Shown here piece by piece: positions 745 to 52,000 of a stretch of 64,000 nt of DNA. The position numbers and the translations under genes were made by a program. The notes beneath the pieces are model-generated. The model was not told where the DNA came from and did not search any database. It worked only from the letters and a program-made list of their open reading frames with translations. Position 1 is the stretch's first letter. Every line of letters starts with the position of its first letter. This DNA is from Rugalucina vietnamica (lineage: Eukaryota > Mollusca > Bivalvia > Lucinida > Lucinidae): positions 34,624,329-34,688,328 of the forward strand of contig OZ024880.1 of NCBI GenBank assembly GCA_964017185.1. Reading direction: 5' to 3'.

Positions 745-980
745 TGAGCCGCCGCATGGTAAAACAAACAATCTGCATATGCGAAACCAAAGCCGCAGAT
801 CAGCTGTGCAGTAACTGCACAGCTGATCAGCGCCTTTGTTTTCGCTACACGGATAGCACAATTCCTCTACTTTCTAAATCCAAAATTTCCAACTTCTAGC
901 CTTCTTCTATGACTGTACAGCCCGGTTTGTGTCAAACCTGGTCGGAACCCAAATTGTTGGTTTTCTCACGCACTGGCTCA
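745..980. mobile_element. Family A MITE, copy 1
   Basis: A 236 bp near-palindromic element with ends TGAGCCGCC / GGCTCA and a central hairpin (AGCTGTGCAG / CTGCACAGCT). It ends 15 bp before the vWA exon, so it supplies much of the intron sequence just upstream of the splice acceptor. The ATG at 929, in frame with the exon, lies inside this element and is not the native start. Confidence 0.85.
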
Positions 981-995
981 ATATTATATTAACAG

Positions 996-1379
996 ATTGT
1001 CAGAAAGACATCATCATAGTCATTGACGAGTCTTCATCTATGAAGCCACACCAAGATGACCTTCTGAATTTCCTCGCCTCCTTGGTTGCTGACCTATCCG
1101 TTAGTCCTCAGGGAACGCACGTATCGGTGGTGACGTACAATAACCGTGTGCTACAGCACTTCACTCTAACCGCTCATTACAACGTTCAAGACCTGCAAAA
1201 CGCCATCAAGCAGATTAGTTTTAGAGGTGGAAATGATGATATCAGCGTTGGTTTAAGCTATGTACTGCAGCTTATATCGACAAGCTCACAGCTGTTAACC
1301 ACTGACAGACCAACTGTACCAGATGTGGTCATATTCATCACAGATCACAGTGATCAGAACTATTTGTCTAAGCTTTATG
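996..1379 (+). CDS. vWA-domain exon, N-terminal two thirds (partial gene)
   Basis: This 384 nt exon is bounded by acceptor TATTAACAG (AG at 994-995) and donor TATG|GTAAGC (GT at 1380-1381). It encodes the start of a von Willebrand factor A domain: strand IIIVIDE with the MIDAS motif D-E-S-S-S, then NFLASLVADL, THVSVVTY, SFRGG and VVIFITDHSD. The family's MIDAS Thr after the GG is not obvious. Known vWA domains bind ligands through a divalent cation held by these residues. The exon enters in phase 1 and leaves in phase 1, joining 1832-2004 to give a complete vWA C-terminus. Upstream exons lie outside the window. It is a close paralogue of the - strand exon at 12272-12646. The product is probably a secreted or cell-surface protein, by analogy with that complete gene. 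Confidence 0.85.
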
Positions 1380-1404
1380 GTAAGCTCTACGACATTACAG
1401 AAAC

Positions 1405-1585
1405 TTATCCATGCAATATACAGAGATTTTTTTTCAGCTGTGGGGACACGTTAGAACTGCATTGCCGAGGCGGTTCTAACGAGTACCCACAATTTATGCG
1501 TTGGACTAAAAAGTAAGAAAAAGTTATAATAAACCTTTGTAAACCCTAGTTTTTTCTATATAAAAGTGGGGTTCAATGGGGTATA
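1405..1585. mobile_element. Family B MITE, copy 1, inside the vWA intron
   Basis: Recognised by the sequence TCCATGCAATATACAGAGA, the centre around TTAGAACTGCATTGCCGAGGCGG, ACGAGTACCCACAA and the TATAAAAGTGGGGTTCAA tail. Both ends are eroded and the hairpin is partly lost. It lies in the 452 bp intron between the two vWA exons. Confidence 0.7.
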
Positions 1586-11941: not shown

Positions 11942-13956
11942 CTGTAATTGAAAGAAGCTAAAAGGTTTTCGAGAAACTTACAATATACAAACTATTCGGC
12001 AAGCATTAGAATAATGTGACGAAGGGTTGCCTCAGATTAAAACAAAGAATAAAAACTATAATGACATAGCACATAGAACACATCGAAATGCATTCCGCTG
12101 ATTTTAACGAACCTGTTATTTTAAAACCGTCTTGTTAATATTTTAAAACATTCAAAATATTCGTATACAGTGTGTAGCAAAGCTGCGAGAGTACGTTGAC
12201 CAAAACAGTATGTTTTGCGCGTGAATGATGCCCGTAAGTTATTCAATATTGCTCGGCTCCCGTATACGTACCATATAGTCTACTCAGGAAGTTATTTGCA
12301 GTGTGATCTGTAACAAGCACCATTGCGTCCGGAACATTAGCCCTATCTCCGTTTGTCGGTGTTGTAATTTTGTTTATGACGTAAGCAAGTCCAGTGGACA
12401 GAGAGTCAAAGCCTCCTCTGAATTTCACACTGCGGATAGCAGTTTGCAGATCTCTGACATCAGAATATTGGTTAAACGGAAACTGAGTATAACCACTCAG
12501 TGAGTAAGTTGACATAGATACGTGAGTGCCCAGCAAGCTGACGCCAAGGTCACCAACAAGTGATGCGAGGAAATTTAAAATGCCACTTTGATATGGAAGC
12601 ATCGTGATCGACTCGTCGACAATGAATATAACATCCTTTAAGCAACCTGAAAAAGGGAATAGAAAATTATGCCAGACTGAATGGACTGAGAACAAAAACA
12701 TGGTGCCAGTTTCGTATCCTAATCATGCAAAAATATCTACAACGAGTGACCTGTTTTATGACAAAAAGCTAGTATCTCACTTGCTTTAGCTAGAGTAACA
12801 GTGTATTCATTCTGCGATGATGCAATTTGTGTATTTATATCGAACAAAAAAGGTTTTGAGGTTTTGTCGTACCCCACCCCCTTATTTCTACACGAGCCAC
12901 AAATGCCGTCGAGTAAAGAGTCTTACTACTCTGGGTTGGCTGGGGTATAAATGTCGATGTAACTGCTGAAGTCGTTGGGTTTCGTGTTGTCAAAGGAACG
13001 TCCACTGCTGGGTAGTTACACAAGTCGGACTCGCAACATTTAACACTTAGATCACGAGACGATAGACTGCGCTTTCCGACAAAAGGAAATTCTATGTTGG
13101 TTCCATCACAGTGCTGCAGAATGTTAAGACTGTTTTTATTTATTAATGAAAAACAGAATTGAAATAAACGTAAACTGATTCTTATCTACTAGATGTACTT
13201 GTACAATAAGAGTCATCTAGTGGCTAGTGAATAAGCAGATACTGTGATAAACCTATACAGATTTTCGAAAAATATTCATTGTCGTCATTATCAGAGTCTA
13301 TTTGCAATGCTGTACATGTTTACGTGTACGTCGTAAACAAGAAGTTGCTTTCAATACTTGTTTCAACTTTGTTGGAGAGCATATGATCAAACTATACCCA
13401 TGGTGCATCTACATGTACATGTATGCAATACCGAAATTTAGATAATCTAAATGTAATTGTTAATTTCTGAAAGACTCAGTTGTATAAGCATTTCTTACCG
13501 TTTTTGCTTCGCATGTCATAATAAATTCACGGTGCCGATCTACACTAGACTTCAATTCTTTCAACATACAAACCTAAAAATACGTCAAATATTTTTTTCA
13601 TTAGAAAATTTTAATTAAAAATATAAACCTAAAACAAGGTTAAATATTTTTTTTTCATTAGAACAAATATAGCATACTGTAAAGGCATAAACCCATTTTG
13701 ACAAATTGATTTTTCCATCATTGCCATATAGGTCAAAGGGCTTCACCAGGCTTAAATGAGTTTAGGTCTATAAATATTGAATTGGAGCTACTAGTACACT
13801 ATTGCTTACTACATGATCCCTACATCGATGTCTGAATGGGAACTTAATACTTTATTTTATTGTCTGAATTACAAACGAATATACACTACACGTTAAATAC
13901 ATGTAACTGATCGTTCCAAGGCGATACTTCTGTGGTGTTCTTTCGTTTTATGTCTT

Positions 13957-23830: not shown

Positions 23831-24252
23831 TTTTGGAAATTTTAAACGTTAGCGAAGTTTCTCGGAATACATTTAGCCACCACGGCGTCAAAGGAAAAGT
23901 CGCTTGAGCATCAATGTTGAATTACTTACCGTACATGTACTTTAATATTGCTTTCCAAATTAGATTACGTACTATATGTAAGTGTCGGATAATTCTTCTT
24001 TTTTGTTATTGTAGGACGTATGTGTTGGCGGAGGAAATAAAGCCATAACACGACAACAAATCATTATGGAGACGCTTCCGTAATGCTTCTGAGCGCTGCA
24101 TGCGATATGCATGCCAATCCTTCATAATGTAGCTAATTATCTGTCCTGTATTAACTGGATATAATTTCAAAATTTCCTGATATAATCAATTACAAACCAA
24201 TGCCAGCGCTCTTGCACGAAAAACAAACATACGTCAGCTTTTCTGTAACATT

Positions 24253-24488
24253 TGAGCCGCCTCGTGGGAAAACCAACAATCTGCATAGGCGAAAACAAAG
24301 GCGCAGATCAGCTTCGCGGTAACCGCGAAGCTGATCAGCGTCTTTGTTTTCGCTACTCGGATAGTACAATCTCTCTTCTTCCTAAATCCAAAATTTCAAG
24401 CTTCTAGCATGCTTCTGTGCTTGTACAGGTCAGTTTGCGTCGGACCTGTTCGGAAACCACATTGTTGGTTTTCCCACAAGGCGGCTCA
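24253..24488. mobile_element. Family A MITE, copy 7
   Basis: 236 bp. The hairpin is AGCTTCGCGG / CCGCGAAGCT: both arms changed together relative to copy 6. Confidence 0.9.
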
Positions 24489-24539
24489 TTTGTACGAAAA
24501 CGGTATCATCACGTGGTACAGACAGCTTTCTACCATCTC

Positions 24540-24812: not shown

Positions 24813-24912
24813 CAGCGCCAACGAGCTTGGTTATGACCTTTCCGGGTTGTATGTACCTCTTGCATTTTGCATCCTTTTATAATAATTTATTCCTCTTCCT
24901 ATTGAGAACAAA

Positions 24913-25085
24913 TGAGCCGCCTCATGGGAAAATAAACAATCTGCATAGGCTAAACGGATAGTACACTTCCTTTTCTTCTTAAATCCGAAATTTCAAGCTT
25001 CTAGCTCTTTTCTGTGCTTTTACAGGCCGGTTTGTGTCGGACCTGTTTGGAAACCACATTGTTGGTTTTCCCACGAGGCGGCTCA
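24913..25085. mobile_element. Family A MITE, copy 8 (hairpin deleted, 173 bp)
   Basis: Both termini are intact (TGAGCCGCCTCATGGG / CCCACGAGGCGGCTCA). The left arm joins the right arm at CATAGGCTAAACGGATAGTA, so the central stem is gone. Confidence 0.85.
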
Positions 25086-25194
25086 AATGAACAAGCTAGG
25101 TTATATCCAACTTTCAAATTTCCTAGATTTTAGGTTATATCCCAACTTGAAATTTCTAAAACAAGGGTTATAAAAACATCTGTTTTAATTTTTC

Positions 25195-26110: not shown

Positions 26111-27171
26111 TGGCTTTTTTATTTTCATCTGCCGTCGACACCAGCCTTTACGTCAGTAAATTTAACGTTTAAAATTGTCTTGAATAAAAAGAAACAAAAC
26201 AAGTTTTGTTTTATAAAAGAAAAATAAAACCACCATTTGGAAAATTAAGTTTTATACTACTTCGCATTAAGAACGTGGTTTTATTTCGAACTGTTTTAAT
26301 GGCGCATTATAATATAAGTAAAGTAGAATATCGAGTGTTTAAGTAAAACAAATAGAAAATATTGAATAAGTTATAAAACATTTAATGACACCTTCAAACT
26401 TGTAACTAATGCTTCTTCTTTGAAATGTCTAGAAACAGTTTAATTGATTTATTTTAAGAATCGAATGTAGAATCAAGTTGTTAAGCCGGAGCGGAAACGT
26501 CAGACAAAATGCATCCTCGATGGCAAGTCTTCTAAGTCCAGTCGAAATATATGGTGTCAAACAAATTGACTCCTTGCGGGTTTTTTTCCGATAGAAGATT
26601 CAATGCATATTCACTTAATTAAAGCATGTGCTTTTAGTACTGCAGGTTAAATTTCAGGTACATGGCATAATCTAAGGTTAACGTATTCTACCAGAGATGT
26701 GGGTTTACGACCACGTAGGCAATTAAATAATCAGAGACGGGATATTTCAACATCTTGTAATCGAATTTCCATTAAACCATTAAATTTTATTTAAACATTT
26801 CCCAATAAAACAAATGCAGAATATTTCATTTAAAGTTGTCGGCATTCTGCGCTGGGAGTGTAAATCCGAAAACCATGATATTCAGTCGCGTGTCATGGGG
26901 TGTAGCCGCATGTTAGAAGGCGTTTTTAATGTAAAAGGAATGGCTGAACTTTGTAGCATTTGAGGTTTATGGAACACACATTCACTATGTGCGTAGGAAT
27001 ATAAACGGATCAAGACGCCTTACAACTGTTTGCAGGCTGGCATCACACACGATACAATTTCCCCTCGCTTGGATAGATATGAGTAGTTTTGACACCAAAA
27101 TCTACCACCTATTTTCATTTTGTTAAAAGAGATCACAGATCAAAGATTTCTCATAAGCACGTTTTGATATG
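26111..27171. other. AT-rich stretch, nothing recognised
   Basis: No exon, RNA gene or known repeat seen. Confidence 0.4.
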
Positions 27172-27640: not shown

Positions 27641-28091
27641 TAGATGGGTTGAACAGCAGTAGCTTTCTTTAAGCACGAAGGGGTGCTTCAAGCTGTGTTT
27701 AACTGGTGGACAAAAACCATTTGTTGAAGAGGTTAGCTACTTAGCTTTATCTGAGAATATAAACAAAATCTCAAAAGTCGTTATGACGATTCTTTGGACG
27801 AGAATGAATTTTTACCCCAAACAGTCAAAGTCTACTTCTTTCCTTTAAATAATTGCTGTCATTATCTCGAGTAAGTATATGAAACAAATCCAGGTTTGGA
27901 AATTCTGAAATAAAGTTGTAGGCTTCTTGCTGCACCCCAAATTTGGTGCTTTCGGAAATTTGCATTTAGCACTTTTTTTACTTAATCTTTTCAAATAAAT
28001 TAATGCTTTGTTATTTACCTGATACTGCCCTTTAAAACAACATATTTTTTTAATTGTTTGTAAAACATGTAGACTTCAGATGGTTATAAAA

Positions 28092-28327
28092 TGAGCCGCC
28101 TCGTGGGAAAACCAACAATGTGGTTTCCGAACAGGTCCGACTCAAATCAGGCTGTACAGTCACAGAAGATTGCTAGAAGCTTGAAATTTTGGATTTAAAA
28201 GGTAGAGGAATTGTACTATCCGTGTAGCAAAAACAAAGGCGCTGATCAGCTTAGCAGTTACTGCGAAGCTGATCTTCGTCTTTGCTTTCGCCTATGCAGA
28301 TTGTTGGTTTTCCCATGAGGCGGCTCA
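28092..28327. mobile_element. Family A MITE, copy 9
   Basis: 236 bp with hairpin AGCTTAGCAG / CTGCGAAGCT (one mismatch). Confidence 0.9.
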
Positions 28328-29848
28328 AATGAGAAAGATAATAAGTGGTGCAAAACTTCTTTTGATGAGTATATTAAGTCTCCGTCTTTCTCGCCTGATG
28401 CCTTTACTTGAATCAAACTCCTCGCCGGGTCGGGAGAAAGTCTATCTATTTTCACCCTAGCTGGTGAGCGCTAGTAATAATTGTAGTGGTGCTGGAGACA
28501 AAGCACATATTTGTGGGGATTTTATGAGAAAAAAGGTAATGATAAGAAAATACTCTTAGGGAGATGAAAATAGAGGATCTTACACGAGTAATGACCACAA
28601 GTGTAAAATTCGTTTTATCATATGACCTTTAAAATACGATTTTATCGCCTTCAAAGTGGGCAAATTTTCAATGAAAATTTACATTGTTGTCACGTACGTC
28701 GTCAATGACGTTACGTATTCTCGCAAAAGTGTTAATACACGTGTGGTCATAACAATTTTTATTACATGACGTTATCCACTGGAAAACAGCGATGTCATAT
28801 GATAAAACTCGGTTCTTTCAATGGTTTACTTTTATGGGACACGGAGAACAGAACCTTCTTGGAGGGGTCTCACAACAGACTTAAAACCAGTGGACAATCA
28901 CACATATTTGTATATGAACCATGTTAATCATCTCTGTTTGTCTTTGGAAGTTAAGCAACAGCATTTTCTGTAAGAAATTTATTCCTGACAACAAGCGCGT
29001 GTATATGAGCCAACCGTGAAGATATTTCCATAGAGTTCATCAGGTGAAGATCACTAACTGATGACGACAGAGAACGTTACTACATTTTTTATGTTAAACA
29101 GTCAATTGGTTTCATTTAATTAAACTATGAACACTATGGCAAAGTGTATTGAAATCATATAATATAGTTGTGTAGATCTCTAGCTTGTTCAGTATTCATT
29201 TTAATAAAAAGTAAATCTGTATTTGTCTTCGTAATGTTTCGCATGCTGTTTCGTAGATTTTACAATCGTCAATCCCATTTAAGGATAACTCGAATCACAT
29301 GTGCCATTCATTTGGTCTATATAATGTTGTTTCTGTGCGCATGTTTGGATTACAGTGATCGCGTGCATAACATAGCTTGGTATAATCCGTTAAAAAACTT
29401 TGTCACAGACAAGGAAAAAAAGAACTCTTAAAAAAACGATATCATAAAATATAATGTCTATCGGCGATTTTGCAAATAAGTTTTAGGCGAGTGGTGTGGC
29501 TGTGTTCAAAGTGTGTTACGCTAACTTACAAATTCCTTCATTATTTACTATGCTCTCACCCATAAATGGATTCATAACATAAAATTTCAACAAAAACGAC
29601 AAAAGCGACGATGCTGCGAGATTGTTGTCTGATGTTTCCGATGGCTATGATCGGATACTTCTTCGACCTCTTAGGGCTGTGAAACCATGATATCTTTTGT
29701 TGGGGTGAAAATCTGAAAATATAAAATGGAAAGTCTTATATGAAATTCCGCAATATTTGCACAAGTAAAATATACTTATGGTTTATTTATATACAGTTTA
29801 ATACGTTAGCATTTCTATTGTATGTTCACTTTTCCCGGCTGTCATAAT
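28328..29848. other. Non-coding stretch, nothing recognised
   Basis: One 87-residue frame on the + strand at 29168-29431 has no domain, signal or splice context that I can support. Confidence 0.4.
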
Positions 29849-29945
29849 GGCAATGACAATGACAATAGTTTATTGAATAATTTAGGCCACCGGCCCACAA
29901 TACAAACAAAAAAGCAATACATAAATATATTCTAATCGAGTACAT

Positions 29946-30968
29946 GATATACTACTCAAACTTTGATAAGCATCAAAAGTTTATTTTTGATTACAAGACA
30001 TACTGGTAATCTAACACTCGAAATTTTGCTACAGATATATAGCAGCACCATCACCGTGCAAACATTCCATCTTTTTTCGCATTGCCTGCGAGCCCTTCTC
30101 GCAGACTTGCAGGAACAATGGAAACCCCCTGAAATTGAAGTTGTCACTGTTTCCTACCCTATCCAATTCCGTCATTCATTCCCTCTTACTGGATCATTCA
30201 ACTGCAAAACTGTTTTGATACTCGAAATGTCGATACTTTTGTATCTAAAATGAACTTTTGGAAAATTCCAGAAATCTGTGATTTTTGGTTAAAAACACGA
30301 TTTTTTACCAAAAAAAAATTTTTCGCTTAAAATGTTGTCCTTTGCATGGTGATCATGAAACTGAAAACCGTTTTTGAATACGCACTCTGGTTTGCTCAAA
30401 CCAGCGTTTTTAAAATTTGTTGTCAGATGTTTTAATCACATAATACAAATTTCCATTAAGAAAACGTTCAGTCCAATGACAAATGTTTTAAAACGCTGTA
30501 AAATCTAAACCAATGCCCGTAGCTCAAATCGGTTTTCTGTTTCATACTCGCAGCCTAAAGGGCAGCGTTTTAAGCGAAAAAAAATTTTTTTGGGTAAAAA
30601 ATCGTGTTTTTAACCAAAAATCACAGATTTTTGAAATTTTCCAAATGTGCGTTTTAGACCCATAAGTATCGACATTTCGATTATGAAAACAGTTTTGCAG
30701 TTGAATGAGCCAGTAAGAGGGGGTAAATGACAGAATTGGATAGGGTAGACAACAATCAATGAGCAATGGCAACTTTAATTTCAGGGGGTTTCCATCGTTT
30801 CTGCAAGTCTGCGAAAAGCGCTCACAGACAACGCGAAAAAAAGATGAAATGTTTGCACAGTGATGGTTCTGCTTCATATCTATAGCAAAATTTCAGGTGT
30901 TAGATTACAAGTATGTCCTGTGAACAAAAATAAAGTTTTGATGCTTATCAAACTTTGAGTAGTATATA
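29946..30968. mobile_element. 1 kb foldback element inserted in the LINE 3' UTR
   Basis: Two arms of about 400 bp (29946-30340 and 30553-30968) are inverted copies of each other, starting TATACTACTCAAACTTTGAT on each side, around a 212 bp centre. Both arms carry a matching TGCTTATCAAA and TCAGGGGGTTTCC segment in opposite senses. Arm identity is high but not perfect. The frames read in it (29963-30253, 30542-30877) are mirror images from the same repeat, not genes. Confidence 0.85.
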
Positions 30969-31067
30969 ACGCTCATACTCTGTTTCAGCAATAGATGCAT
31001 CTCATAAATTCTTAACCACTAACAATACATATAAAATGTAGCTGAATTCATACATAAGTCTTATAGC

Positions 31068-31682
31068 TCAAACCCTATTTCTGAGATTAAAAGCATGAAA
31101 TATAAACATAGCAAGGTTTAATGTATTTTGATAATTATCATTAAACAAAGTATAAAAGGTTTCAGTGTTTCGTTCTCTATTTTCCAGTGATGGTATATAT
31201 GTAATTCTGAGATTTTCGTAAACCGGACAAATCATGACAAAGTGGAATTCATCTTCCACCTGGTTATAATCACATAAAGTACACAATCGACTTTCGTATG
31301 CTATATCGTCATGCCGACCTGTTTCTACTTTTAGTTTATGAACAGAGCATCTAAGTTTCGAAAGAGCTATTTGGTATTTTATTGGAAGATTAAATTTAAG
31401 ATAATTTGCAGTTTGTAATGTTGGCATAATAAATCGATAGTGTCTGGCTTTATCCGACTCTAAAAGTTTTGCATGCCAGTCTTGCTTACTACAATCAACG
31501 ATTCTTTGCTTGAAAGCCCTAATAAACATATTTATATCACCTACTTCTTCATTCATCCATACATACCCATAGCCATAAGAAAATAATAAATTTTTTACAT
31601 TCGTTGCCCATGTATTTCTACCTACTTCGTCCAACCGCCTTAGCATTTTATAACATTTGTATGGAATCCTTTCTCTATTCAT
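31068..31682 (-). pseudogene. LINE ORF2, C-terminal part (shifted frame)
   Basis: Continues ORF2 after a 1 nt frame change just before 31682. It encodes the thumb-like and C-terminal region, ending with a Cys/His cluster (CTLCDYNQVEDEFHFVMICP) of the CCHC type found at the end of many LINE ORF2 proteins, then a stop at 31068. Confidence 0.8.
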
Positions 31683-31684
31683 TC

Positions 31685-32203
31685 TTATAAGTCTGAGCCA
31701 ATATTTAATACATTATAAAAATAATCTACATATAATGGGTATCGACCACATTCGCCACAGGCAAAAGCATTTGTTGTACATACCGGCAATTTTAAGTATT
31801 TCTTACAAAAATTATTCTGAACGTTTTCAATAAAACTAGATTCTTGAAATCCCCAAATTTCTGCACCATATGTAAGAATCGGCTTGATCATAGAATCAAA
31901 TAATTTAAAGAATTCGTGATATTCAAAATATCCAATTGCATTTTGTAGTTTTGACATTGTAATTATACCACGCTTAGCTTGAATAGATAAACCCTCCTTT
32001 GCAGATGACCAGATTATCTTGGGTGTAACAAATATTCCCATGTATTTATACTTTGATACAGTTTCAATCCGATGTCCATTAAAGTACCATTTTTCATTTT
32101 CTCTAAGGTAACCCCCATTACGAAAAACTATTATTTTTGTTTTTGACATATTAATTTTCATTCCCGTTCTGTTACAAAAACCTGCTATAACATCAAGGTG
32201 TGC
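31685..32203 (-). pseudogene. LINE ORF2, RT-distal part after an in-frame stop
   Basis: In the same frame as the RT core. A TAA at 32204-32206 separates LYADDMANVSDNVRSL from the following AHLDVIAGFCN. The next residues (MKINMSKTKIIVF, GHRIETVSKYKYMGIF) are the usual post-YADD region. It ends at a premature stop where the frame shifts. Confidence 0.8.
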
Positions 32204-34540
32204 TTATAATGACCTCACATTATCGCTAACATTTGCCATATCATCTGCATATAAGATGGCTAAAATATCGGAACCATCAGCTGATATTTGTATACCCTGA
32301 ATACCAGATAATTTTAATTCTTCGATTAGTTCATTTATAAAGAGGTTAAATAGTATTGGGCTAAGCTTACACCCTTGTCTTGTTCCAATATTACATTTGA
32401 AATTGTCCGTGCATTTACCATTTCCTAACTTAACACAACAGCAAAGATTTCCATACATTTTTATTAATAGTTTTAGATACTTTCCATGTACACCTTTTCT
32501 TATTAAACAATTCATTAACTCAACATGATCAATATTATCGAACGCCTTGGAAAAATCAACAAACAAACAGTAAAATCTCCCTCCCTTTTTGCTTAGATAT
32601 TTTTGTCCCATTGACATCAAGGTAAACAAATTGTCTACCGTAGAATATCCTCTTCTAAAACCTGCCTGAGATTCATCTATTTTTGAATACTGATTTGACC
32701 AGTTACTTAATCTTGTATATAACATTCCAGTTAAAATCTTGTTAAAAACATCTATCAATGATATGCCCCTGAAATTATTTGGATCTAAAAGAGAGCCAGA
32801 TTTAAATATCGGGCATAAAATACTTTCAGCCCAATTTTCCGGAAACCAGTTTAATTCAAAAATTTTATTAAACAATATAAGAAGTATGGTAGAAATTTTC
32901 TCCGATGTGCATTTTATCATCTCTGCAATTATACCATCAGGTCCACTTGATTTACCAAGTTTAAGATTTTTGATACTTAGCAGCAGTTCTGTCATTGTAA
33001 AAGGAGCATTGAAATATTCATTGTAAGGACCGTCATCATTAAAATCGTGTAAATGTTCACTAAAATGCTCTGCCTGCTCACTGCATAACAGAGTTTTAAA
33101 ATGACTTACCCATGTACAACTATCTATTTCATTTGGTTGCTTAGGTTTATATCTAAATTTTTTAACATTTTTCCAAAACTTGTTATTGTCTGTTCTTGAA
33201 TCAATCAATGCCTGTCTGTTCATTTTTTGATGTGCAATTCGCTTTGTTTTACAAACTTCTTTGAAGATTTTGCGTTTATTTTTATAATTTTGTAAAGTGG
33301 TATTATCACCTTCCATTCTAAATGTGCGCAGCGCTTTATTTTTCTCTGCTTTTAATGTTTTACACTGATTATCCCACCAAGGTTTATTCCGTTGACTTTT
33401 ATCTTTTTTAGATTTACATTTCATTCCTTCAGAAGCTTTATGATATATCTTAACTAACTCCTTTATACCAGTATCAATATTTTCTTCAATCAAACCTAGG
33501 ATATTTTCCCTCTCATTTTCATATTGCTCATTAAAATCGTTAATAAATTTATCTTTTTGGTCATCATTCCATTTATATTTATCAAAGATCCTCCCAGCTT
33601 CTGCCATATCATCATTTACTTTTTCATATGTACCAACATTGAAAACAAAGGAACATTTTAATGGAAAATGTACTGACTCTGTTCGGTTTCCGACTTCAAA
33701 GTGGTTAACATAATCAAACAATTTACTTGATACAATAATATAATCTACGATACTTGAGCCTTCGTTAGCTGTACATGTTATCTCACCTTCTTTATTCCCA
33801 TTTACCCTACCATTTAAGAAATGTACACCATATGACATACACAAATCTATCAATGACCACCCAAATGTATTGCATATTTTATCTTTAGACTTCCTGTCTT
33901 GCAAAAAACTATCGGACTCATAAACTACATTTTCATCAAAAATAAAATCCACAGTATCATCAATCGTAATATCTTTAACCTCGCCACATCTTGCGTTAAA
34001 ATCTCCGGCCAATACTATCCCAGCATCAGGATAATGACTTACAATTTCAAACAGTTTGTTTTCAAATTTCTCTATACCATTATTGCCAGTTATGTCATCA
34101 TAAATCGGCGAGCCTTCTGGTGATATGTAGGTAAAACAAAATATGATATCATTTTCTAAGTCCAAAAGTTTTCCATTCAGTAATAAAACGATACAATCAT
34201 CAAAATTACTAAACACTCGTTTAATCAAATCATTACTTATTAATGTATGTTTTACAAAAACTGTAACACCACCAGAGCTCCTACCCTTTTTGTAACGCTT
34301 TTTGCGAACTGTAGAATAAGCCTTATAACCACCAAAAAAGTTGTCAAATTGTGATATAGAATTTCCCCATGTTTCACAAAAACTAATGATATCAAATGAC
34401 TTAACATATTTGTATATATTTTCATCATTTTCATATTTACCAAGCCCTTCAATATTCCATGAACCTATTTTTAGGGTAAAGTTTGAAAGATTCTGCCCAA
34501 GATCATTGTTAATTTTATTTTCTAGGCGTCGGCCATGCCC
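32204..34540 (-). pseudogene. LINE ORF2: endonuclease and reverse transcriptase core
   Basis: The frame is open from directly after the ORF1 TAG, with no ATG in the first 104 codons. Endonuclease motifs: GSWNIEGL, ISFCETWG, LAGDFNARCG, IVDYIIVSS. The last one, normally SDHxP, reads SVHFP, so the conserved Asp is Val. RT motifs: SSGPDGI, FRGISL, QAGFRRGYST, LFVDFSKAFD, GTRQGCKLSPILFN and the catalytic LYADD. The frame ends at TAA 32204-32206, about 15 residues after YADD. Together these mark target-primed retrotransposition machinery. Confidence 0.9.
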
Positions 34541-35482
34541 CTATCTTTCAGTTTGTACTTGTACAATGTCCTCGCTTGTTTCATCATACTCAAATGTTTC
34601 ACCATCTATAATTAATTTATCATATTTCAGATACGCTTCTTTCTTGTCTTTAAGTGCATTTCGTAGATAACCTCTCAAGTCATTTCTCGCTTTCATCACT
34701 CTACTCGGAAAATCTTCACATACTGTTATTTCCTTTCTAAACGTTTCATCTTCGACATTTTCCTCGTCATCTTCACCTTCTTGTGACCCATCTGCATTTT
34801 CATTTTTATTCTGCGCTCTGTCCCTTTTCTCATTACTTGCCTTTCTCTTTCGACGATAGGCTTTCAGAAACGCTTCCTTTTCTTTGAAGAAAGCAAATTT
34901 AGTTATGATTGGATATGGTTTCTGTCCACTTTTCATTCGATGTGCTCTTTCAATAGTTATTTCGGATACATTCATTTCAAGGTCCTTTGCTATGTAATCT
35001 TTGATTTTTCCCTCTGATTCTTGCCAAGTTTCATCTCTATCCTGCTCTATCCCATAGAATCGTAAGTTTTCTCTTCGCGATTGGGCCTCTAACTTTTCTC
35101 GTTTTAGTTCACTCTGTTTCAGATCTTTCTCTAACTGCGATACTCTTTCGCTTAGGTTACCAACAGCTTCATTTATCTCATTATTACTTTTAATGAGCTT
35201 TTCATTTGACTCCTTCACTTCACGCATTGACTTTTCCATATCTTCGAACTTGTTATCTATGTTTCTTATACTTGTCTGAACATTTAACATGATATTTTTT
35301 AGCTCTGTCATACTGATTTCTCCTCCATTATTTGCCCCTAAGAAATGCGACTGACCTTGCTGAAGCATAGGCATAGTTTGATTGGAACTTTGGCTAGGAC
35401 TTCCAAACCATGAGTTAATTGGTGGTTGGCTGCCTTGCATACCCGATGCATTGGTTGAATGAGTTGTACGGGAAGGCAACAT
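34541..35482 (-). CDS. LINE ORF1 (coiled coil plus RRM-like, Transposase_22 type)
   Basis: 313 residues, intact. A Ser/Gln/Asn-rich N-terminus (residues 1-50) is followed by a long heptad coiled coil (about 55-130), then ARRENLRFYGIEQ, the hallmark of the RRM-like core of L1-type ORF1 proteins, and a basic/acidic C-terminal region. Such proteins bind the element RNA as trimers. The frame is also open upstream of the ATG at 35482 for about 30 codons, so the start is not certain. It ends in TAG (34541-34543), and ORF2 continues in the same frame. Confidence 0.85.
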   Translation of the reverse strand: MLPSRTTHSTNASGMQGSQPPINSWFGSPSQSSNQTMPMLQQGQSHFLGANNGGEISMTELKNIMLNVQTSIRNIDNKFEDMEKSMREVKESNEKLIKSNNEINEAVGNLSERVSQLEKDLKQSELKREKLEAQSRRENLRFYGIEQDRDETWQESEGKIKDYIAKDLEMNVSEITIERAHRMKSGQKPYPIITKFAFFKEKEAFLKAYRRKRKASNEKRDRAQNKNENADGSQEGEDDEENVEDETFRKEITVCEDFPSRVMKARNDLRGYLRNALKDKKEAYLKYDKLIIDGETFEYDETSEDIVQVQTER

Positions 35483-35582
35483 TTCACTACTTCGTAACCA
35501 TCTCAGCGACTCTCGATCTCTTGGTGGTTCTCTACCACGACCAGCACCGAAGCTAGCACCGCAAAAAAGTAATTCATCATAA

Positions 35583-36477
35583 AAAGTAAAGGAATGAGTC
35601 GACGAGAACCATTATGAGATCAATGGTCTTTTCCTCCTTTTTCACTTTGATAAGCTCATTTTAGGGAGGAGCGATTCTAACTGTGATTTGAATTTAGGGA
35701 TCATTCCTCTAAGCAACAGAAGAGACCAAGTAGGAGCTTCATTGTTTACATATGTTACACAACTAGTACGTCAGGTTAGGGTAAATTCAGAAAGCTGAAT
35801 AAAGTGAAATTAAAAGCACTGTTTTGGATTAAAAAAAAAAAAAAGAAACCCATTAAACCCCGGTCGACCAAACACCATGAAACTCCGTAAAGCAAGGCTC
35901 TACAGGCAAAAACGCAAGGGTGCCTAACCATCAATCTAGCTCAAAACAATGTCGATTTGTGTACAAGATAATTCAAAGATGCATGATAATAAGGGATTTA
36001 CCAGTTTTCGCACCGACAGGTAAATGACAATAAATACTGATTGTAATCAGTACAGACGGACTCTAGCATTTGGGATAGCGTTTCCCATTGAAATAAGCAA
36101 ACTATTTAAAAGTAAGTAGTAAATACGACACACTAGTGAATCCCAAACGGTTTTCATTAAACTTGTCAGGATCTACAGCTGTATACGGACAACTGTATAA
36201 GCCAACGTCAAAAAATATTCTTTAACCTTTCACAGGTGGTTCTCATTGCTGCTTGACCTTTAGTAAAAACGTACATGTATTATAAATGACGGCATACAAG
36301 TGAATAAATGAAATGAAGTCCCAGGTATATAACGCCGTCCAGGGCCAACGGTTCAATCCAAGATCTCAACCTAGTTATACATTGCACATTACCAACAATC
36401 TTAAAAAAAACGCATATTACATAAGTTGTTTACTCTTCCTGTGTAAACGAAATTTATTGTTCGCAATCATTTCTTAC
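35583..36477. other. Intron-like region between the LINE and the neuropeptide exon
   Basis: No coding stretch with convincing splice sites. If the adjacent neuropeptide exon is spliced at 36478, this and the LINE would lie in its downstream intron. Confidence 0.4.
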
Positions 36478-36877
36478 CATCTAACAAGTCCATGTAATTT
36501 GCCAGTGATCTGGAGTAAGTATCATCTAACCTCTTTCCACGCATTGACACAAACATCTTCGGATGAAATCGTTTCCGCGGTCGTTGTTGATAGCTTGTGT
36601 ACCATCCTCTGTAGCCAGATGGCAACGAAGACAAGAAACCCATTCGTTTTCCTCTAGAACCAAAGAACTGATCCTCAAACGCACGTTTTACCGCCATGTC
36701 TTCATCATTTTCGCTTAAATGCTTATCTTCCATAATGTTCCCAAAGTTTGAATCCCACATTTGCGCGTTATCGTAGTATGATCTAGGTATAAAGTCGTCA
36801 GATTGTGACTCTGTGTCTTGGTATCGTGCATCGTTTTCGTCAGTATCGGCAGCGAGTCCCAGTTCGTCATTCTGGCC
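36478..36877 (-). CDS. Tachykinin-type neuropeptide precursor, internal exon
   Basis: Acceptor TTAAATTTCAG ends at 36878 and a strong donor, GATG|GTAAGA, follows 36478 (phase 0 in, phase 1 out). If that donor is not used, the frame stops 10 nt later. The product begins with an acidic spacer rich in Asp, Glu and Tyr. A Lys-Arg site then releases AFEDQFFGSR, followed by G-KR (amidation plus cleavage). A 23-residue linker peptide follows, then KR, FHPKMFVSMR, again G-KR, and a C-terminal peptide. Both amidated products end F-x-x-x-R-amide; protostome tachykinin-related peptides end FxGxR-amide and molluscan ones vary within FxxxR-amide. The signal peptide exon and any further copies were not found. 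Such peptides act on G-protein-coupled receptors in nerve and gut; that role is inferred. Confidence 0.7.
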
Positions 36878-45980: not shown

Positions 45981-46185
45981 ATACGATCTGTGCTGTTGCG
46001 CAAGGTGTTAAAAGTTATGAAAATAAGCAACAATCAAGGAACAGGCACATACAAACACCTTCATGAATCCCAAACGAGAAAATACTGAAGCAGCAAATAT
46101 ATCAAATACAATGAGAACAAATTGTAGACCGACACAGAAGTTATTTCTCAGAAAGTGATCAATCAGCTTCCTCAACTGAACCAAA

Positions 46186-46360
46186 TGCGCCGCGTCATGA
46201 CAAAACCAACAATGTGGTTTTTGAACAGGTCCGAAACATATCGAACTGTACAAGCACAAAAGATGGCTAGTGGAAATTCGTGGTAAGCGCGAAGCTGATC
46301 TGCGTCGTCTTTGTTTGTAAACGCAGATGCAAAATGTTGGTTTCTTCATGATACGGCTCA
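46186..46360. mobile_element. Family A MITE, copy 11
   Basis: Ends TGCGCCGCGTCATGACAA / CATGATACGGCTCA. The central part is partly deleted. Confidence 0.75.
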
Positions 46361-46683
46361 AATATGATACGTACATCTGCAATAAATAGACGTCGCTGTA
46401 CATCAAAACGAGAAACAGAACGTACCATAATCAAATTGTATCCTTGGAACGGACAAAGCTTTTTATGTTTTACAGATCCTGGATGTTACTATATATGATG
46501 TGTTTGCTTTTAATATTGTACCTTTCATCGACATAGACAAGATAAATGCATCACAATGTATGATGCCTGTTGGCTCTGTGATAAAAGGTACACAAAATAA
46601 GCCCCGATGAGAAAAACGAGGAATCAATTTTTGTAAACACGTACATGTAATTTAACCAAAATTTTGAACTGTAAAAGGTATAT

Positions 46684-49014: not shown

Positions 49015-52000
49015 TGTCATTCGTAAATGGTCAACCTGAATCGAAAATCATCATTTGTATAGATTGCATCGGGTATAAGGCTTACAATATCATATTATAT
49101 AGTTTTGTTCAAAACCAGTCCACAATTTCTTCGGAAGAAATAGCCAAAATGGTTTTCTGCATATGGACATGACGTTGCTGGTAAATAGGCTTGCTCCAAT
49201 TCTATCCTGCCAGTCTGTCCATTTCCACAACCACAATGTTAACCGCTGAAGGGACATTGCCATTGCCAAACAATGTAACAAGATACACCGGCTCTTTCAT
49301 CAATTATACTGCTTCCTTTTATGGGTACTAATATGTTATCTGTCGAAATAAAATCTCCGAAATACTTTGAAGTAAAATACACAGAATGTGGATAAATTGA
49401 ATTCATTTAAGGTTTAACATGTGCATTTACATCAGTTAAATACTTTCCAAAATAGGTGTTTCTTGTCGACCAAACGTTTTCAACTGCCATTTTAGGTAAT
49501 ATGACCATAGATCAGTCTTACGCCATGTTCTTACAACTGGAAAAGCAAGAAACGAAAGACAAGTTATTGAAACAATTTTAAAATTCCAACTTAGACGCCA
49601 GACGGCTGAAAACGACACCGCAAGACATTAAAAAAGGACCTGAGAAGACTATAGGTTTTCCGCCCAAAGTTTGAGTGTTTCTGGTAGCTTCTGCGTTAAT
49701 TGTATAGAATATCTGTTGCATTCTCTGTAAAAATTAAAGGTTTTATAAATGCAACAACATGGTGGAATCCTCTTGATGTTACATACCTGCAGCATAAATC
49801 TGTGTCACAGGAGGAGGGTGTCAGATTTGTTTTTAAAAATATTTTGTCAGAAAACATCTTTTTTGCCACAGAGTATAAAGAAAATACTACAATTAAATAT
49901 GCTTATCGCAACCTAAAAGTTTGGGTAGGAACTATTTATGCACGAATAACAGGTACATCATCTTTATCAGATTTATAACTCTAAATAACACTGTCCATCA
50001 CTTTTGCAAAAACATGTACCTTAAATAAACTATGCAAAAATTAAACAACTGTTACTGTGATTAGTGACACCATGTGTTTTGTTGACATCAGGGAAGTTCT
50101 TCTGACAATGGCTTGCATATCTCAAATACGTTTTAAACCATTAGAAATTGTTTTTTGCACAGTATATTTATATGCATTGCAACATGTACACTTTATGTGT
50201 ATACCTGTTACAATAGGACAGATACTCTGTTCATACTCTGTTCATTCAGCTAGAACATATATAGACAGTATATTTCCATAGCCTTGGTCTATTACAAATA
50301 ATAGCGCTGAGCCCATTTATTGGTTTTCGGGCATTTTGACAGCCCCCCCACCCTCACCTTGCCCAAACATGACATTTTTTATATAATATGTCATTTACAA
50401 AAATACAGTTGTGTTAGAATATTTTGATTGGGCAAGGGGGAAAAAAAGTTTGCTATTTCCTACATGTATATGATCATATATTCAATTCAAAGATTTTGTC
50501 CAATTTTTAAAGTAGTCATTTCTTGGCTTACACACAACATAACATGTCTAAATACAACAGAAAGTTACTTTTCGACTGTAATAAACTTCATCTAAGTGCC
50601 TGGAACATGAGATTTTGAAAAATTCTTGGGCAATCTCACTAAAGAAATCTTCCCAGATCCTTACCAGAAATCAAAGGTGAGGAGAACACCACTAAGGATG
50701 ACAGAATAATTAAAACACAAGAAGATAAATCACAGCAGAACCGTCTTATGACTGTCAGTGAAATTCTGAAGGTGGAGGGGGGGGGGGGAGGTTAATGCTT
50801 TGTCGGAGCCACAATCCTCTGCGTATGTCTGGTTTGGATTCGAGCTCAGTATCAATTGGACAGAAACCCAATGGTTCGCTCTTATCACTGCAAAAGTCGC
50901 ATAGTGTTCAAGCTACAAGTTTAAGCTTTTCGAAAACGCTTGCTCTTTCACAATGCTATTTTTCAGATTCAACTGCTCGAATATTCTCGTGGCGATATAC
51001 CGAAATAGCTAAGATGTTTTATCTACCTTAGATGGGTGTTATTCGAGATCTGGTAAGTGATTTGGGTAGGCTTACTTTGGAACTTTTGTGCGTACTCACC
51101 CAGGCCGAAATGGTATTTATCGCTCAAATACATGTATTAAGTAAGATTTCATAATTTTCTTTCAGATGACCAGCTCTCCAGTCATTTGATTGGTTCAAGA
51201 TCAGTTGACCTTTATAAAGACTGCTTTTCATGATGACCATTCCGAAATGGTCAATAAAACTTTTTCGGAATTCTGCTCATATAATATGCTTTTTCGCCAT
51301 GATTGCCGACATAACAACAATTGACCCAATATACAAGGTTGCATATTATATGTCTTAAGAAGTCCAAGGCATTCAATAATTTGTCTGTAAACGAGATCGT
51401 TTCATTGTTCGTCATCCCTTAATTCTTTAGTTGACCTGTCATTATCTCTTATTAATGAGGCAAGTGAATCCTCGTGCAATGACATGAAGAGCATTCCGAG
51501 TATTTATACAACTTCCGGGACTGGTGATTGGCAATATTGTTGTCCAGGTTATTCGAAAACGTGTTCGTGTCAATATAACATGATCAAATTGAACAAGAAC
51601 TACACACACCCGAACAACAGATGCATATCATGATGTTTGTACGCAGCAAAATGACACAATATTTTAATCTATAATACGTTGGTGTAGCTTTGTAATGTAA
51701 AAGTTTTTTAAAGACGCCGCGCATTTTCCAAAATAAAATGAGTGGGAAAGAAATGAAATAAGTACATACAGATATTACTGTAAACATGTTGTAAAGTTTA
51801 TGTTTTTGATCTTTATATCTTATTCAGCATACGCCTTCAAAACAATTCCAATATGTTTGTTGAATATATTTTGTTGAATATATGTTTGCATATATAGGTG
51901 TTATGGTCCAGGTCCAAAGGTGACCACCTTAAATGCAATTGTTTGTTGACCGATTTTAACAATTGTATTTAAAGACCTTACGTTCGATCAGCATGTATGC

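Follow-up and report, generated by a model that had tools for sequence, protein, structure and literature searches.

We found that the minus strand of the window, i.e., the whole 64,000-nucleotide stretch of DNA analysed here, very probably carries a gene for a lophotrochozoan tachykinin(-related) peptide precursor with three predicted coding exons. The organism is most likely a bivalve mollusc. The model encodes 187 residues on coding exons whose lengths are 96 nt for the first, a candidate, 400 nt for the second, and 68 nt with the stop codon for the third, and the introns were calculated from the coordinates to be 40.4 kb and 6.8 kb (Table 1). The precursor is probably a member of a known family, and its gene appears to be one peptide richer than an earlier sequence-only reading had seen.

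Table 1 Features of the predicted precursor gene. Extended positions count on past the window end into the adjoining upstream DNA; a slash marks a splice junction.
Feature	Position	Strand	Remarks
AATAAA poly(A)-signal-like hexamer	28978..28983	-	3' of the stop codon; weak evidence, three similar hexamers nearby
Proposed terminal coding exon	29645..29712	-	Completes Asp, then FHPN-KR-YHGFTALR-GRR-SIRS-stop; acceptor TTTTATATTTTCAG/ATTTTC, in-frame splice
Predicted peptide 3, YHGFTALR-amide	29669..29692	-	Last five residues are those of oyster FRFTALRamide
Proposed intron 2	29713..36477	-	6,765 nt; putative splicing; mostly occupied by a LINE that has the gene's orientation
LINE	about 29850-35611	-	About 5.8 kb; endonuclease and reverse transcriptase domains
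Central coding exon	36478..36877	-	400 nt; enters in phase 0, leaves in phase 1; from ORF and splice contexts
Predicted peptide 2, FHPKMFVSMR-amide	36539..36568	-	FxxxR type without Gly; KR before, GKR after
Linker peptide MGFLSSLPSGYRGWYTSYQQRPR	36575..36643	-	23 residues
Predicted peptide 1, AFEDQFFGSR-amide	36653..36682	-	FxGxR type; KR before, GKR after
Nearer signal-peptide candidate MHKTVLKIFVLLLNCFVIFGLPFLKPDIGYRQ	extended 77375-77280 (G000:C12:34701703-34701608)	-	Start context AACCATGC; donor CAG/GTAAGA; phase 0
Rival signal-peptide candidate MCKTLVFSLCTQLCFLLLFLLAVQTCQ	extended 114712	-	Start context TTGCATGT (poor); donor CAG/GTGAGC; 78 kb upstream

Both peptide units described in the sequence-only reading, which gave no strand, were encoded on the minus strand by a 400-nt exon (36877-36478). 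The reading frame at 36961-36467, which comprised 164 codons from stop to stop, contained KR-AFEDQFFGSR-GKR and KR-FHPKMFVSMR-GKR; the KR and GKR flanks reported for the two segments were borne out exactly in this single frame, and the peptide between them had the expected length. The acceptor was TTTCAG/GGCCAG, in its fuller form GACTAATTTTGTATCCGTTAAATTTCAG/GGCCAGAA, and the donor was TTAGATG/GTAAGAAA (GATG/GTAAGA), with the fuller left side ACTTGTTAGATG/GTAAGAAA. The interval that had been proposed as an exon coincided with the one bounded by these splice sites. When the exon was used as a DNA query of the 1.09-Gb assembly, the one match obtained was the exon itself, and as a protein query it returned itself and two weak matches, L003 (E 2.6) and L004 (E 9.55). 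As far as DNA and protein searches can see, the exon is single-copy in the assembly. No G[KR][KR] was found by eye in the frames listed for L003, and this match was taken as chance.

A six-frame pattern scan revealed a further unit, KR-YHGFTALR-GRR, at 29660-29698 on the minus strand, 3' of the central exon. Two peptides had been counted previously; both are present, and this third flanked unit (FTALRGRR, 29660-29683) had been missed. It was located in a 45-codon frame preceded by a strong acceptor, TTTCCATTTTATATTTTCAG/ATTTTC. Joining the phase-1 end of the central exon (GAT G/) to the start of the terminal one (AT/TTT) would form Asp and continue in frame to FHPNKRYHGFTALRGRRSIRS, followed by TAG. 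From the phase and the splice sites, we infer that the two exons are joined. The precursor would then contain three units as paracopies, namely KR-x-GKR, KR-x-GKR, and KR-x-GRR, the third of which hinges on this putative splice. A short terminal exon with an entire neuropeptide can thus go unnoticed when exons are read singly.

To gauge how often such units arise by chance, the window was shuffled 400 times with a third-order Markov model and searched with a pattern picked after the exon was known. FxxxRG[KR][KR] strings occurred five times in the window, against a shuffle mean of 0.21, and three of them were preceded by a dibasic site at a distance of 2-14 residues from the F; such flanked strings averaged 0.03 per shuffle, with a maximum of 1. 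Neither two flanked units within one ORF nor FTALRG[KR][KR] was observed in any of the 400 shuffles. Together with the splice sites that bound the 400-nt exon and with an independent third unit of the same orientation, these results argue against a chance open reading frame, which we regard as very unlikely, to the point of near dismissal. The other two strings, FNCLRGRK (26704-26727, minus) and FDWARGKK (50423-50446, plus), were dropped as units; both had no dibasic site in range, and their frames were of 27 and 28 codons, respectively.

The element in the proposed intron 2 was also characterised. The frame at 35611-34541 was taken as ORF1 by its position and gave no Pfam match above the cut-off; the endonuclease and reverse transcriptase domains were located within 34540-32204, and the reading on the reverse transcriptase side was broken by one stop and a frame change. 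A CATTGT-like short repeat near 29850, some 140 bases short of the terminal exon, was read as the 3' end of the LINE. A 1,001-base stretch of the reverse transcriptase had at least 41 further matches in the genome, of which at least four spanned the whole query at 94-99% identity, indicating that this LINE family moved recently. The insertion, with copies of its reverse transcriptase stretch up to 99% identical elsewhere, speaks for an alternative in which the LINE has split a tachykinin gene and the locus is a remnant that is decayed or no longer transcribed. However, the central and terminal exons were open, in phase, and provided with good splice sites, and no second precursor was seen in the genome in a search of low sensitivity. 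LINEs within introns are, moreover, common in large genomes. We therefore give the remnant reading a slim chance and favour an intact tachykinin-type gene.

Several other features were recorded in the window. An inverted repeat of about 1 kb (29947-30967) with three arm blocks (176, 131, and 78 nt; 87-89% complementary) is perhaps a foldback element inside the LINE, towards its 3' end. A likely MITE family is represented by short elements at 28073-28346 and, by eye, at about 24240-24490 and 24910-25090, the inverted ends of which are GAGCCGCCTCGTGGGAAAACCAACA-like. Frames with von Willebrand A domains were found at 878-1516 (plus) and 12243-13185 (minus), and a frame adjoining the latter matched an activin-receptor-type domain at 22.4 bits (cut-off, 20.9).

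With a phase-0 entry and a frame that lacks a start codon upstream of the acceptor, the central exon needs a separate 5' exon. We scanned the window joined to 80 kb of upstream DNA (144 kb) for signal-peptide exons. At the later thresholds (h-region of at least 2.8 and donor score of at least 12), which were fixed after the candidates had been seen, two phase-0 candidates were obtained, both minus-strand, while the plus strand had none. In the looser scan, phase-0 candidates within the window had lower scores. In the Markov control at these same thresholds, three hits in total were obtained in 60 sequences of about 107 kb, and an earlier, differently scored control gave two phase-0 hits in 30 Markov sequences. 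When the thresholds were loose, hits were more numerous on the plus strand (24) than on the minus strand (18).

The nearer candidate (77375) was located about 13 kb past the window end and 40 kb upstream of the central exon. The stricter first filter missed it and the looser scan placed it second, while the rival at 114712 was more hydrophobic and ranked first in strict and looser scans alike. Nevertheless, we prefer 77375 owing to its start context (AACCATGC versus TTGCATGT), its nearness, and the fact that no gene was recognised between 36.9 and 77.3 kb; for this interval ORFs of at least 100 codons were viewed, and the one that was Pfam-scanned (46008-46430) gave no match. In our judgement, 77375 is fairly likely to be the signal-peptide exon of the gene, and 114712 is a rather unlikely candidate for it. 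As the tachykinin gene needs one such exon, one candidate or both must have arisen by chance with respect to it. Between them lies a plus-strand gene that appears galactosyltransferase-like. Two similar plus-strand genes were observed, at extended positions 102786-108248 (L008-L009) and 140721-142183 (L012), and their ORFs resemble core-1 type beta3-galactosyltransferases (LKADDDTYVIVENLRHFLSEQ). An upstream signal peptide had been set beforehand as a point on which the precursor reading could fail; putative exons for one were found, although 40 and 78 kb away.

Searches by profile and by peptide unit were also performed. A Pfam scan of the two-exon protein gave nothing above the cut-off, and a match to DUF5881 (E 0.22) below its cut-off was taken as chance. 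When known tachykinin units and those of this gene were used as a query of the genome, four matches were obtained at E of 10 or less; three were the gene's own units, weakly matched (E 0.083, 0.382, and 3.11), and the fourth, likewise weak, was located on C5 (E 3.56). No second tachykinin precursor was seen in this search, the sensitivity of which was low, as the own units at E 0.083-3.11 indicate. Myomodulins mark lophotrochozoans, and the myomodulin-type repeats GLSMLRLGRGLQMLRLGKRGLPMLRLGR that this genome contains are consistent with a mollusc.

We then compared the predicted peptides with known ones, using the parts of the cited papers that describe them. The two mature tachykinins printed in the oyster survey of Stewart et al. 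in 2014 (Pinctata fucata / Crassostrea gigas) are FGFAPMRamide and FRFTALRamide, both without the Gly (PMC4200219). They and the present peptides are amidated and end in FxxxR; peptide 3 shares the FTALR-amide end with FRFTALRamide, and peptide 2 has the FxxMR-amide form of the other (FVSMR versus FAPMR). The oyster link comprises five residues, FTALR-amide, and the processing sites. Unlike the two printed oyster peptides, the present precursor would contain three, one of them still canonical FxGxR. FVSMR-amide had been regarded as a possibly divergent paracopy; it need not be one and does not appear aberrant among bivalve tachykinins, since neither of the two oyster peptides in print has the Gly. 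Furthermore, only F and R are critical at the oyster receptor, as reported from other work in PMC9521575. In a literature text search for FTALR, the oyster study alone appeared relevant as judged by title-level entries, and the text matches for FFGSR/FVSMR-like strings included a conotoxin table (PMC10892987) and the oyster study.

The tachykinin-related precursor of Aplysia, as described in the portion of PMC11365428 consulted, has three exons, 165 residues, a signal peptide, and two FxGxR sequences, and its linker peptides were observed by mass spectrometry. The present model resembles it in exon number, in length (187 residues), in the candidate signal peptide, and in having several dibasic-flanked amidated units together with non-tachykinin linker peptides. 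The Aplysia peptides FKPSGFMGSRa and QPHLGFHGSRa share the GSR-amide end with peptide 1 and keep the Gly (PMC11365428), whereas peptides 2 and 3 are without it. The tachykinin precursor of Patinopecten yessoensis has five copies, versus three here, according to the part of PMC5996578 that treats it.

Peptide 1 (FFGSRa) has the FxGxR-amide signature in full, and peptides 2 and 3 keep the F and R only. This raises the question of whether the precursor belongs to a different family of amidated peptides (luqin, FxRIamide, natalisin-like, or lineage-specific), with a likeness to tachykinins at F and R only. Such a precursor would account for peptides 2 and 3, which have no FxGxR Gly and share the FxxxR-amide C-terminus of arthropod natalisins (PMC6880623, PMC9521575), and for the missing profile match. 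However, natalisins are described in the sections consulted from the Panarthropoda lineage and with a separate receptor, unlike the present gene (PMC6880623, PMC9521575); peptide 1, with its complete FxGxR form, and the myomodulin-type repeats, which point to a lophotrochozoan, likewise speak against membership in that family. The printed oyster luqin, APQWRPQGRFamide (PMC4200219), and the scallop FxRIamide (PMC5996578) have different endings, while FTALR-amide is a published tachykinin ending and the other printed oyster tachykinin also lacks the Gly (PMC4200219). Another family is accordingly improbable. The tachykinin-type reading that had been proposed is supported by the phase-compatible third FxxxR unit with the ending of a published oyster tachykinin, by the lack of any rival Pfam family above the cut-off, and by the candidate signal-peptide exon upstream.

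A composite receptor query of the genome gave 719 GPCR candidates, of which 150 were scored and four loci (L013-L016) were viewed. L013 was neuropeptide FF receptor-like, and L014 and L016 were read as ORFs only. The 11 best solved-structure matches of the GPCR exon at L015 were NK3R, NK1R, and NK2R (85-93 bits), and the next kind was NPY2R (75 bits). To our knowledge, luqin receptors are absent from the solved structures. Since luqin receptors are also paralogues of tachykinin receptors, as stated in the part of PMC5940834 used here, L015 is a candidate for a tachykinin or luqin receptor.

Taken together, these findings suggest how the gene would be expressed. Spliced together, the candidate signal-peptide exon 40 kb upstream and outside the window, the central exon encoding peptides 1 and 2, and the terminal exon encoding peptide 3 would yield a 187-residue prohormone. 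After signal peptidase cleavage in the endoplasmic reticulum, a prohormone convertase would cut at KR/RR, a carboxypeptidase would trim the basic residues, and the C-terminal Gly would be converted into the amide. The predicted products are AFEDQFFGSRa, FHPKMFVSMRa, and YHGFTALRa, with calculated [M+H]+ values of 1202.5589, 1278.6598, and 963.5159, respectively. The released peptides may act on a tachykinin-type GPCR, for which a candidate exon is present in the same genome.

With two exons bearing clear splice sites, one proposed farther off, and three predicted peptides, the locus provides a near-complete model for a bivalve-type tachykinin system. If the canonical FxGxR peptide and the two Gly-less, natalisin-like FxxxR peptides were to have unequal potency at the receptor or to be spliced differently, peptide 3 standing alone on an exon behind the LINE, they would represent a tachykinin/natalisin-like divergence within one lophotrochozoan precursor; we consider this unlikely. 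A precursor with FxGxR beside Gly-less peptides could help to date the loss of the Gly in bivalve tachykinins.
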